Shown here: in pieces, positions 37,524 to 54,816 of the stretch | Layout of the letters: each line of letters opens with the position of its first letter | Numbering within the stretch: the first letter of the stretch is position 1 | Origin: Streptomyces sp. JB150 | GTDB taxonomy: Bacteria > Actinomycetota > Actinomycetes > Streptomycetales > Streptomycetaceae | Assembly (NCBI RefSeq): GCF_011193355.1 | Contig: NZ_CP049780.1 | Span: 4,539,085-4,603,084 of the forward strand | DNA: 64,000 nt | Direction: 5' to 3' | The notes under the pieces: generated by a model | Database searches by the model: none | What the model was told of the DNA's origin: nothing | What the model saw: only the letters and a program-made list of their open reading frames with translations | Translations under genes and position numbers: made by a program

Positions 37524-38561
37524 CTACGCCTCGGCCTTCTTGCGGCGCACGAGGTACACCGCGCCCGCACCGGCGACGACGGCGGCACCGCCGACCAGAC
37601 CGATCATGGGCAGGGCGGAACCGGCACCCGTCTCGGCGAGGCTCCCGGTCACGTCGACCGGGTTGACGTCGTCGAGGTCGGCCATGCCGCCGGTCTGCGG
37701 CTTGGCGTCACCGGGCCGGGGATTCTCGGAGCCGGCGGCGAGGATGTCGAAGAAGTACAGCCAGCCGTTCGGGTCGTCGGCGATCCAGCAGCCCTCTTCG
37801 TCGGCGTACTGGGCGAAGCCACCGGTCAGCCCGATCGCGTCGGGAACCTCACCGCTGACGCTCAGCCGCATCTCGAACGAGACGGACTGGCCCGCGCCCA
37901 GCGAGAACGCGGAGAACGTCCCGCCCTCACCGCCGGTGTCGGCGATGGTCGACCAGGCGCCGGAGGCCTTGTCGCGGACCTGCACCGTGATCTCGCCGGA
38001 GTAGTCCTGCTCGTCCCATCCGATCGCGGCGACACCGATCAGCGGCTTGATGTTCTTGATCTCCTCGCCCCCGCGGTTGGAGACGTCGAAGGAGAACTGC
38101 TCCCAGCCGCTGCCCGCGACGATCGTGTCGGCCAGGCCGGACAGGCCGCTGCGCAGGTCGTCGCTGACACCGGTCGACTCGTCACCCGGGTCGGCGCAGA
38201 CCGGGTCCGGCTCGGCGGACTCGCTCGGCGACGGCGACGGGGAGGCGGAGCCGGTGGCGGAACCGGTCGGCGCGGGGCTGGTCTCGGTGGCCGAGCCCGT
38301 CGGCGCCGGGGAGGTCTCCGTGGCGGAGCCGGTGGGCGCCGGGGAGGTCTCGGTGGCGGAGCCCGTCGGTTCGGGCGCGGTCTCGCTGACCGAGGCGGTG
38401 GGCGCCGGCGTCGCGGACTCGGACACCGTCTCCGTCGCGGTGACGGTCGGGCTCGCGGAGGACGTGTCCCCGGTCGCGAACGCGGCCGGCGCCGAGAGCA
38501 GCGCCAGCGGGGCTATCGCTGCCGTAGCGGCCGCTGCGGCCAGGGCGCGGCGAAGCTTCAT
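37524..38561 (-). CDS. LAETG-anchored surface protein with Pro/Thr/Ser repeats
   Basis: 345-aa exported protein. Signal peptide of about 29 residues (MKLRRALAAAAATAAIAPL...AFA), then a Ser/Thr/Pro/Glu stretch with four near-identical 11-residue repeats (P-A/E-PTGSATETS; 33-bp DNA repeats at about 38250-38370), then a 170-residue domain with two Cys (DPVCADPGDES... EEGCWIADDPNGW) and a beta-rich look. The end is a sortase signal: LAETG at 308-312, a hydrophobic span, and RRKKAEA. LAxTG is the motif of class E sortases in Streptomyces. Start ATG 38561 after GAGG; longer upstream frame rejected because the signal peptide begins here. No sortase gene is nearby. Confidence 0.88.
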   Translation of the reverse strand: MKLRRALAAAAATAAIAPLALLSAPAAFATGDTSSASPTVTATETVSESATPAPTASVSETAPEPTGSATETSPAPTGSATETSPAPTGSATETSPAPTGSATGSASPSPSPSESAEPDPVCADPGDESTGVSDDLRSGLSGLADTIVAGSGWEQFSFDVSNRGGEEIKNIKPLIGVAAIGWDEQDYSGEITVQVRDKASGAWSTIADTGGEGGTFSAFSLGAGQSVSFEMRLSVSGEVPDAIGLTGGFAQYADEEGCWIADDPNGWLYFFDILAAGSENPRPGDAKPQTGGMADLDDVNPVDVTGSLAETGAGSALPMIGLVGGAAVVAGAGAVYLVRRKKAEA

Positions 38562-39266
38562 GAAGACCTCGAATGTCCGGTGCTGCGGCGGCGCAGCACG
38601 CGTGGGGCGGTGGGCGGCCCCGCGTATGGGGCGCGGTTGTGACCCTTGATTCGCCTGGTTTGATCCGTGAGTGCAGTGAATGGTTGTCCCGCCACTCACA
38701 GAATTTTTATGTGGGCTGGATCACACCGGTCGCGCCGAAGGGCCCCGCGGGGGAGGAGCCGCGGGGCCCTTCGTTCGTGGGCACCGGTGTCAGGGCGTCA
38801 CCGGTACTCGGGGGAGGCGGCGCCGGGGGGTGCGCGGTTGGTCTCGGCTGGTGAGGTGATGGCGATCAGGCTGATGCCCGTGATGCCGGGTGATGCGGGG
38901 ATACGGGGCGACCGCCCGCTCCCGCTCCGGGACTCGACGGAACAGGATCCGTTCCGCCGGCCGGCCCCGGGCGTCCCCGGAGCCGGCCGTTTCTCTTGGG
39001 TGACCGGGCTGCTGTCCCCTGCCGTCCGGTCACTTCCCTGGAGCGAGGTCCCACGACGCACGGCACGATCCGTCCGTCTCATCGCTCCAGCGAGCCACGC
39101 GTGGTTCTTTCGGGCCCGCGCCTGGCTGACACGGACACCGGGACCAACGAAGCGGCCGGCGGGACGGTCACGCGCCGTACGGGTGAGAGGTGATGCGTAC
39201 GTACGTACAGGGACCGCCGGCGCAGCGCCCCCCGGGGCCGGGCCGCGCACAGGGCCGGCCCGGGCG
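38562..39266. other. 700-bp region with two hairpins, no firm gene
   Basis: Contains a perfect 14-bp hairpin (38737-38772), a 12-bp hairpin with one mismatch at 38959-38988 followed on the + strand by GTTTCTCTT, and a CGTACGTACGTAC stretch near 39195-39208. A minus-strand frame ends at 38798, 26 bases before the first hairpin, but has no convincing start or domain. Confidence 0.5.
38737..38772. terminator. Perfect 14-bp hairpin, probable terminator
   Basis: GAAGGGCCCCGCGG, 8-base loop, and the exact complement, followed on the + strand by GTTCG. No gene on the + strand precedes it; on the - strand it would end transcripts coming from the chorismate-mutase side. Confidence 0.65.
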
Positions 39267-39563
39267 TCAGATCTTGCCGCGGCACAGCTCCAGCAGCGTC
39301 ATCGCGAGCGCCGTCCCCGGCTTGCCGAGGGCGTCGCGGTAGTGGCCGAGGACCTCCATCTCGCGGGAGAGGTTCACGCGCCGGCCGCCGGAGCGGATCC
39401 GGGCCTGCTGGATGACGGCCGAGACGGCCATCCGTTCCTGGATCAGGCCGATGATCCGGTCGTCCAGGGCGTCGATGCGCTCGCGGGCGTCGGTGATCAC
39501 GTCGGCGGCCTCGGGGGTGCGTGCGCCGGTCTTCTCGGTCGCCGTCGGTGCGGTCGCGGTCAT
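39267..39563 (-). CDS. Chorismate mutase, AroQ type
   Basis: 98-aa enzyme rearranging chorismate to prephenate, the branch point to phenylalanine and tyrosine. After 20 variable residues comes the all-helical AroQ domain: DARERIDALDDRIIGLIQERMAVSAVIQQARI with the active-site Arg, Lys/Arg and the RVNLSREMEVLGHYRDALG segment. Stand-alone single-domain form, cytoplasmic, no secretion signal. Start ATG 39563 with GAGGAG about ten bases before it. The leader region upstream carries a short ORF rich in aromatic codons followed by a terminator hairpin, which suggests attenuation by Phe/Tyr supply. It is divergent from guaA. Confidence 0.92.
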   Translation of the reverse strand: MTATAPTATEKTGARTPEAADVITDARERIDALDDRIIGLIQERMAVSAVIQQARIRSGGRRVNLSREMEVLGHYRDALGKPGTALAMTLLELCRGKI

Positions 39564-39644
39564 GTGGGGCTCCTCATCATGGGGCGGGTGGTCGGACGGG
39601 GGTCGGACCAGGCGGCCCCGGAGACGACAGGAACCGGGAAAACG

Positions 39645-39681
39645 CCAGGCGCCCCGGGCCTTGTCGGCCCGGGGCGCCTGG
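39645..39681 (-). terminator. Attenuator terminator upstream of chorismate mutase
   Basis: On the - strand, CCAGGCGCCCCGGGCC pairs perfectly with GGCCCGGGGCGCCTGG (16 bp, 5-base loop), followed at once by CGTTTTCCC. The T-run is on the minus side only, so it stops leftward transcripts about 80 bases before the chorismate-mutase start. Nothing but a short leader ORF lies upstream in that direction. Confidence 0.8.
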
Positions 39682-39700
39682 GAAGTCGCTTGTCAGTTGC

Positions 39701-39772
39701 TCAAGCGGCACGACCATGGCAGCCGGCGGGCCGGTTGCCATAGGTAAAGAGGAAGGTCGCGTGCGTGAGCAT
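39701..39772 (-). CDS. Putative leader peptide with FLFTY aromatic run
   Basis: 23-codon frame on the - strand, ATG 39772 to TGA 39701, containing Phe-Leu-Phe-Thr-Tyr at codons 7-11. It ends 19 bases before the attenuator hairpin. A small stem (CGCTTG/CAAGCG, 39688-39708) overlaps its stop codon, and another (GGCAaCCGG/CCGGcTGCC, 39717-39739) lies right after the aromatic codons, as expected for pause and anti-terminator structures. No ribosome site precedes the ATG; a CATACT -10 box ends seven bases before it, so the leader may be read from a leaderless message. Function is inferred, not shown. Confidence 0.55.
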
Positions 39773-39808
39773 GGGGCTCAGTATGCACGGACGGGGGGTG
39801 GCCCTGGC
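39773..39808 (-). promoter_or_regulatory. Candidate promoter of the leader peptide and chorismate mutase
   Basis: On the - strand: TTGCCA at about 39803-39808, a 19-base spacer, and CATACT at about 39778-39783, which would start transcription at or beside the leader ATG. The spacer is slightly long for a vegetative promoter. Confidence 0.45.
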
Positions 39809-39932
39809 AAGCGGCGTTCGTCACAGCGGGCGCGGCGGAGCCGTGATCGGAGATAGCGACGGGCCGCTTCCCATGCCCGTCTCGGTAGAATCGACAAGCA
39901 CAAGGACCAGCCCAACCGCCGGAAGGCACCCC

Positions 39933-54355: not shown

Positions 54356-54371
54356 GGGAGGCGACTCCTTC

Positions 54372-54500
54372 CATGGGCCGCCTACCGGGTTAGCTGTCGG
54401 GTTCGGGCGGGTCGTGAGGAAGGGTTGCCCTACAGCCCGTCCCGAAGGGGAGGGCCGATTCACCCCAGAGTCTGTTGGGTCCCCGGCTCCGGCCGCTGTG
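54372..54500 (-). ncRNA. c-di-AMP riboswitch (ydaO-yuaA class)
   Basis: On the - strand the leader of the P60 gene shows the conserved blocks of the ydaO class in order: GGAGCCGGGGACCCA, GGGGTGAATCGG, TAGGGCAACCCTTCC, CCGAACCCGACAGCTAACCC and GGTAGGCGGCCC. A closing stem can form between CGGCCG at the 5' end and the CGGCC near the 3' end. The class binds c-di-AMP and in Streptomyces regulates rpfA and NlpC/P60 hydrolases, usually shutting expression when c-di-AMP is high. A likely promoter (TTGGCT, 18-base spacer, TACGAC; 54557-54586, - strand) precedes it. Confidence 0.9.
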
Positions 54501-54816
54501 CGGGCGCGCCGGACTCGGCGGAGGCCGCGCGGCCCGGCGACGTTCGCCGGTAGGAGGTCGTACGGCCTGCGCGGAACGGTAGCCAACTCGTGTGCCTGCT
54601 GTGAAGGTTGGCGGGTGATATGCCCGATACATTTCCGTGACCTTTCCGACAGCGCCCCCCCCGGCGGTCCCTCAGCGGTCCCTCAGTGGTCCCTCAGCGC
54701 TCCCTGCGCGTCGCTCGCCGTTGCCGAGCCTGCGCGGCGCGTGGCGGCCGGCGGCCGGTGTGATGTTCCGCGGGCGGCCCTCGGTTGTCAGTGGGGCGCC
54801 CTAGACTCGGAGAGCG

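Follow-up and report, generated by a model that had tools for sequence, protein, structure and literature searches.

What is the role of a short reading frame with aromatic codons, closely followed by a perfect hairpin, in front of the chorismate mutase gene aroQ of Streptomyces sp. JB150? The 64,000-nucleotide stretch of chromosome that we analysed as a whole, here called the window, had been the subject of an earlier note, which suggested transcription attenuation by Phe and Tyr at this place, with an apparently leaderless leader peptide. Our analysis leads to a similar answer, and with high confidence we regard the element as a ribosome-mediated transcription attenuator of the chorismate mutase gene, of the trp/phe-leader type. 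It is best read as a sensor of charged tRNA-Phe, and perhaps also of charged tRNA-Tyr. In Streptomyces and its relatives, a leader in front of chorismate mutase appears to stop the transcription of this enzyme while Phe and Tyr are plentiful.

The locus upstream of aroQ

The element and its gene are encoded on the minus strand, with guaA diverging from them on the plus strand:

39805..39810, minus: -35-like TTGCCA, 19 nt before the -10 box, weak, read from the sequence
39780..39785, minus: -10 box CATACT, read from the sequence
39772, minus: predicted transcription start site, the A of the leader ATG, from the -10 spacing
39701..39772, minus: leader ORF of 23 codons, ATG at 39772 and stop TGA at 39703-39701, probably leaderless
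39746..39748, minus: Phe sensor codon TTT, from its wobble conservation
39740..39742, minus: Tyr sensor codon TAT, within the 5' arm of stem 1:2
39714..39743, minus: stem 1:2, the pause or protector hairpin, from folds and covariation
39714..39733, minus: region 2, the antiterminator 5' strand, with predicted pairing to 39681-39665
39687..39707, minus: antiterminator inner helix, 39707-39702 paired with 39692-39687 in the folds
39645..39681, minus: terminator hairpin, regions 3 and 4, 16 bp with loop GACAA, then CGTTTT to 39639
39570..39575, minus: Shine-Dalgarno sequence GAGGAG of aroQ, read from the sequence
39267..39563, minus: aroQ, chorismate mutase of 98 aa (NCBIfam NF005894, E 7.3e-37; Pfam CM_2)
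from about 39933, plus: guaA, GMP synthase (NCBIfam NF000848), divergent

This layout bears out the anatomy given in the earlier note. Seven bases (GAGCCCC) separate CATACT from the ATG, Phe-Leu-Phe-Thr-Tyr occupies codons 7-11 of the leader ORF, and the two small stems that had been described are present in the fold, one at 39743-39714 and the other formed by the inner helix. The perfect hairpin, with arms at 39681-39666 and 39660-39645, starts exactly 19 bases past the stop codon. A T-run follows it in the minus direction only, where the tail reads CGTTTT versus GAAGTCGC on the plus strand, and about 76 bases lead from there to the ATG of aroQ at 39563; the assignment of the downstream gene as chorismate mutase was likewise correct.

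Since nothing but the start of the divergent guaA lies upstream of the hairpin and no gene of its own direction terminates there, the hairpin is most naturally read as a premature terminator, and a plain 3'-end terminator was rejected on this ground. A generic scan, with thresholds of 9/12 promoter bases and 5 T in 8, called neither a promoter nor a terminator at the leader. No Rfam family reached its gathering score in the leader, and the 12 matches up to E 10 included no amino-acid leader family, so that a known Rfam element was rejected as well. Elsewhere in the window, Rfam places a c-di-AMP riboswitch (ydaO/yuaA leader, RF00379, 63.4 bits) at 54364-54530 on the minus strand. On the same strand, positions 37524-38699 encode a protein that looks secreted, with repeats of TSPAPTGSATE and, at its C-terminus, an LAETG-hydrophobic-RRKK tail, which we take to resemble that of a sortase substrate.

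Conservation of the leader and its presumed sensor codons

The earlier note had made an aromatic-codon leader in other species a touchstone of its proposal, and such a leader turned out to be present in nearly all Streptomyces genomes examined, and to occur in other families too. Of 80 GTDB loci, 79 have the core TT[TC]-NNN-TA[TC]-GGC upstream of aroQ; the sole miss is a locus (L033) whose contig starts too close to the gene. An initial script filter had found the aromatic leader in 77/80, with the first Phe replaced by Ser in L020 and L077. R1, a gene-blind covariance model based on 43 leaders, matches 149/150 Streptomyces genomes at E<=0.01, missing only G008, and its weakest match, in G103, is to the terminator alone. 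Across the order, 283/293 genomes match at E 0.1, several of them weakly or by the terminator only. Ten genomes with no or weak matches were traced, among them four (G182, G351, G150, G151) of the 10 order genomes in which R1 has no match. Five gave no AroQ match at all (G103, G182, G206, G351, G384); in G232, AroQ lies 90 bases from the contig start, and in G008 a truncated AroQ match lies near a contig end. In G370, G150 and G151, both AroQ and the leader are present despite the lacking or weak R1 match, and G121 (L217) carries the leader with a GTG start. In genome G000, the remaining R1 matches are short and mostly cover the terminator; a coarse check of the 500 bases that precede the earliest in-frame start, which omitted L284, found no aromatic leader at either of the two prephenate dehydratase loci of this genome or at its type II DAHP synthases L283 and L285. 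Near the chromosome end of G000 and outside the window (C1:4200-5923), a second prephenate dehydratase gene sits beside a type II DAHP synthase gene, a pair that perhaps serves the precursor supply of a natural-product cluster.

For the anatomy of the leader, a script filter for core plus terminator yielded 206 distinct sequences, which are not independent and include at least two chance matches, one from L220 and one from L038, where it overwrote the true core. A start codon was scored, regardless of frame, in all but L038 and L211, leaving 204 sequences that include the probable chance match L220. In all 204, the start codon (188 ATG, 16 GTG) shares the frame of the core TTT, at distances that range from 15 to 42 nt in three-nucleotide steps. 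The -10 box is CATACT in 165 of these loci, and the best match to TTGACC as a -35 reaches at least 4/6 in 158. The -10 box precedes the start codon by 6 nt in 131 loci, by 7 in 72 and by 8 in one. Such constant spacing of 6-8 nt in 204/204 loci backs the leaderless start of the earlier note: as it matches the spacers between -10 and transcription start in Streptomyces lividans, which measure 5-7 nt in 88.7% of promoters in the text available to us (PMC8079986), the start codon is likely to be the 5' end of the transcript, and the leader ORF is probably leaderless. Past TATGGC, the reading frame drifts in several loci (L006, L012, L077, L169, L172); with the frame kept up to this point and drifting after it, the peptide would matter as far as the sensor codons and the RNA beyond them. 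By such comparative logic, we infer that the leader is translated.

In the 206 sequences, the core Phe is encoded by TTT in 202, and Tyr by TAT in 202 and TAC in 4, counts that inform on the wobble base only, as the filter itself requires TT[TC]-NNN-TA[TC]-GGC. The core reads TTTACCTATGGC in 188/206 and TTTAGCTATGGC in 7/206; leaders with TTTTATGGC are absent from this set by design of the filter. Both codons are rare in the 49 ORFs of the window, where TTT accounts for 7/331 Phe codons (2%) and TAT for 17/298 Tyr codons. As TAT is paired in stem 1:2 while TTT is unpaired, the third base of TTT needs another reason for its conservation. Codons read by wobble may be decoded slowly, which would make the sensor sensitive. 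Of the aromatic codons highlighted in the earlier note, the second Phe and the Tyr are those under constraint, whereas the first Phe is dispensable: of the 79 GTDB loci, 76 encode Phe two codons before TTT, 2 encode Ser and 1 encodes Tyr, and in some loci at large the place of this Phe is taken by Ser, Tyr, Val or Leu. In one Streptomyces locus (L214, genome G073), TTT is lost while frame, TAT and terminator are kept, which would make this variant a natural test of Tyr-only sensing.

RNA structures and the proposed switch

The leader RNA of the window is predicted to fold with -81.6 kcal/mol, compared to -51.2 (sd 4.0) in 200 dinucleotide shuffles, none of which is as good (z -7.65); the terminator hairpin by itself has a predicted -42.9 kcal/mol. 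Three mutually exclusive structures are predicted, namely stem 1:2, the antiterminator 2:3 (39733-39714 with 39681-39665) and the terminator 3:4, and the same three recur, with variation, in 19 relatives folded out of 20 given (L193 was left out). For covariation we used two alignments, A1 with 43 leaders and A3 with 72 sequences, the latter made after reverse-strand terminators had turned up in A2. L177, which a contig end truncates, was not kept among the 73 sources of A3, and one of these, L217 (E 5e-6), fell below the cut despite carrying the leader.

Among the 43 close relatives of A1, neither structure covaries clearly above shuffles. In A3, which was fitted to 1:2 and 3:4 and therefore flatters their covariation, 13 of the 28 pairs of stem 1:2 and the terminator changed on both sides, with 66 double-changed cells versus 18.7 in shuffles (0/500 reach that value). 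These changes fall on 10/16 pairs of the terminator, in this alignment fitted to structure, and on 3/12 pairs of stem 1:2, with 94-99% of cells paired per helix; if the partners are slid against each other, pairing drops from 94-95% to 26-49% in the two alignments. For the antiterminator, to which A3 was not fitted, 14 double-changed cells were found versus 4.0 in shuffles, yet 27/500 shuffles reach as many pairs with changes on both sides. Of the compensatory changes that the earlier note had called for, those in the terminator are therefore clear, those in stem 1:2 moderately so, and those in the antiterminator weaker. The leader ORF with Phe and Tyr codons before a gene of their pathway, together with the covariation of terminator and stem 1:2, upholds attenuation as its interpretation.

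A further trace of the switch may be seen in the two arms of the terminator. In the 43 sequences, uncorrected for kinship, 9 letters changed in the 5' arm versus 88 in the 3' arm; in the inner 13 pairs the counts are 4 versus 45, and for C-to-T changes 4 versus 44. In the 72 sequences, also uncorrected for kinship, the figures are 74 versus 177. A slow 5' arm is expected if this arm has two partners, region 2 and the 3' arm. The T-run after the terminator is weak: it comprises 4 T in the window, and the longest run among the 206 sequences is 0-2 in 73, 3 in 80 and at least 4 in 53 (at least 3 in 133).

We also compared region 2 with shuffled versions at 15 hand-picked loci, with the terminator arm kept fixed and a ribosome footprint assumed to extend 12 nt past the first base of the A site. 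With the ribosome at TTT, region 2 and arm together fold with a better energy than the same arm with a shuffled region 2 in 12/15 loci at p<=0.05 (0.007 in the window; mean z -2.66), and arm occupancy exceeds that of shuffles in 8/15 (window 0.007), while 7/15 fail. With the ribosome at TAT, 6/15 loci pass on energy and 1/15 on arm occupancy; the window passes neither, its fold being no better than shuffled (z -0.43). Over 199 of the 206 loci, a stall at TTT gives a mean predicted arm occupancy of 0.88 and one at TAT gives 0.65, while ribosomes 6, 8 and 10 codons further on give 0.24, 0.12 and 0.23. Occupancy is likewise high for stalls before TTT (0.76, 0.85, 0.88), and the fold model consequently does not single out TTT. 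Overall, these results give moderate support to the predicted antiterminator, better for a Phe stall than for a Tyr stall, which is the less convincing of the two in the fold model.

From these features we infer the following course of regulation. RNA polymerase would begin with the A of the leader's ATG, and this leaderless start would be loaded directly by a ribosome, as the spacing suggests. With Phe-tRNA, and perhaps Tyr-tRNA, charged, the ribosome would pass TTT and TAT to reach the stop codon and cover region 2, whereupon the 16-bp terminator 3:4 would form and transcription would end near 39640. If Phe is short, the ribosome would stall with TTT in its A site and block stem 1:2, leaving region 2 (39733-39714) to pair with the 5' arm of the terminator; with 2:3 formed, the polymerase would read through into aroQ. 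A stall at TAT would act in the same way, with a weaker antiterminator. In the ribosome-free equilibrium fold of the window, 2:3 is more favourable than 1:2, and the off state would thus depend on 1:2 forming first, co-transcriptionally.

The wider family, rival explanations and known attenuators

How far does this element extend beyond the Streptomyces aroQ gene? A second covariance model (R2), also blind to genes, was run on 296 genomes from the class. At E 0.01 it has matches in 112, of which 27 belong to its own genus and many of the rest match by the terminator only. Of the 21 best full-length matches outside the order, 20 were fetched (G462 was left out), and 17 of these 20 precede an aromatic-pathway gene, which encodes chorismate mutase in 3 cases (L261, L264, L276) and DAHP synthase in 14; the remaining L271, L272 and L274 are unrelated. 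Identification rests on NCBIfam for the chorismate mutases of L261 and L276 and the DAHP synthases of L262, L263, L278 and L280, and on a start motif or sequence for the others. As the model never saw genes, yet aromatic genes follow its matches, the result supports a real and wide family, with the element confined neither to Streptomyces nor to aroQ.

Family f19, a large family of the class and perhaps the Pseudonocardiaceae, has matches in 40/61 genomes at E 1e-4, at least one by the terminator only, and of 9 further loci read there, 7 carry a leader before DAHP synthase while L286 and L291 have no motif match. Other families of the class have leaders with a similar switch before DAHP synthase, MQRNFWRFYGYRP and others, which are apparently leaderless as well; among 19 distinct ones, by a hand count with repeats removed, 14 have TTTTATGGC as their core. 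The loci concerned are:

L259, L260, L262, L263, L265-L270, L273, L275, L277-L280, L287-L290, L292-L294: leaders before DAHP synthase

They apparently form a second regulon governed by an element of this kind. DAHP synthase and chorismate mutase act as a complex in some Actinobacteria. It is quite conceivable, if somewhat short of probable, that all these leaders form one ancient actinobacterial family of common descent, which stands before chorismate mutase in Streptomyces and relatives or before DAHP synthase in f19 and others, keeps the wobble-read UUU and UAU as a purposely slow and thereby sensitive sensor of tRNA charging, and has aroR of Corynebacterium glutamicum as one of its branches.

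Could the same conservation arise in another way? The F-x-Y-G motif, in many DAHP synthase leaders F-Y-G, is conserved across families, as it would be if the nascent peptide itself, upon some signal, arrested the ribosome through contacts in the exit tunnel, instead of uncharged tRNA, and operated the same RNA switch. Yet the residues before the motif vary freely (MLTHPTFLF, MRKQLSFLF, MQNAQWF, MQRNFWRF, MSSRARRF), the GGC codon sits in stem 1:2 and is explained by its pairing, and conservation extends to the wobble positions, which makes such an arrest improbable. We give a comparably slim chance to a constitutive premature terminator that yields a small peptide or sRNA and has no amino-acid response, with aroQ being mainly transcribed by other means. 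The hairpin is certainly very strong, and terminated leaders can act as sRNAs, but this would leave unexplained the aromatic codons and the downstream pathway gene in several families, as well as the complementarity of region 2 and the slower 5' arm.

Trp stands beside Phe in f19 leaders and in a few Streptomyces (MQRNFWRFYGY; FWFTYG), as might befit a response to tryptophan or to slow translation in general; with no Trp in the leader of the window or in the core of the 79 GTDB-locus peptides, and with Phe and Tyr as the near-invariant codons, we consider it very unlikely. Lastly, short ORFs are common and GC-rich DNA folds easily, so that an ORF might lie beside an ordinary hairpin by chance. 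Against the conservation, frame, spacing and covariation described above, the strength of the fold relative to shuffles and the lack of a same-direction gene ending at the hairpin, this notion is next to negligible, and the near-complete occurrence in GTDB loci and Streptomyces genomes, with the start always in frame, led us to reject it. An attenuator that responds to charged tRNA remains our preferred reading. Besides the weak T-run, the loss of TTT in G073 and the limits of the antiterminator folds and covariation, a precedent from the genus itself speaks against it, as in the similar-looking ilvB leader of Streptomyces coelicolor the substitution of candidate regulatory codons is described, in the available part of a comparative survey, as being without effect (PMC1262725).

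Precedents of the opposite kind come from several systems, all compared here by the accessible parts of their descriptions. In Escherichia coli, the pheL-pheA and pheST attenuators are regulated by the availability of charged tRNA-Phe (PMC11802643), and pheL, like the leader of the window, precedes a chorismate mutase gene, pheA encoding chorismate mutase-prephenate dehydratase. In contrast to this system, the enzyme in the window is a free chorismate mutase, and the leader is apparently leaderless, contains Tyr as well as Phe, relies on rare, near-invariant codons and matches no Rfam family. Closer in phylogeny is an actinobacterial aromatic leader, aroR-aroF of Corynebacterium glutamicum, which reportedly was the subject of a study by Neshat in 2014. 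Here, a leader with Phe-Tyr-Phe precedes a DAHP synthase gene (PMC11802643, PMC4046766, PMC7356990), and its response is given in the excerpts available either as one to Phe and not Tyr (PMC11802643) or as control by both Phe and Tyr (PMC7356990). A response to Phe only would match the stronger predicted Phe stall of our element, which differs in governing chorismate mutase; aroR was compared by description alone.

Within Streptomyces, the leaders of S. lividans TK24 (trpL1, leuL1/2, ilvL and others) resemble that of the window in combining a short, mostly leaderless ORF with a hairpin and a variable U-tract. The eight listed in the available text pertain to Ala, Ile, Thr, Trp (2), Leu (2) and Met, with none for Phe or Tyr and none before aroQ (PMC8079986). 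Classical attenuation is also known in the genus from Streptomyces venezuelae, whose trp attenuator (cited in PMC1262725) senses Trp and controls an anthranilate synthase gene, and the accessible part of the same 2005 survey states that there are no conserved structures upstream of phenylalanine or tyrosine operons (PMC1262725). In the open-licence literature we found no description of an aroQ leader. While the mechanism is classical, we therefore file the Phe/Tyr leader before the Streptomyces chorismate mutase as a new and unusually widespread member of the attenuators, notable for its near-universal conservation and its link to both chorismate mutase and DAHP synthase.

As the element is near-universal in the Streptomyces examined, RNA-seq or term-seq data of almost any species would be informative. 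The near-invariant and rare UUU and UAU would allow a clean test of codon choice as the setting of a sensor. With aromatic precursors feeding many natural products, removal of the terminator would offer a simple handle for engineering. If true, our reading would close a gap in the main genus of antibiotic producers, for whose Phe/Tyr branch control at the RNA level has been missing.
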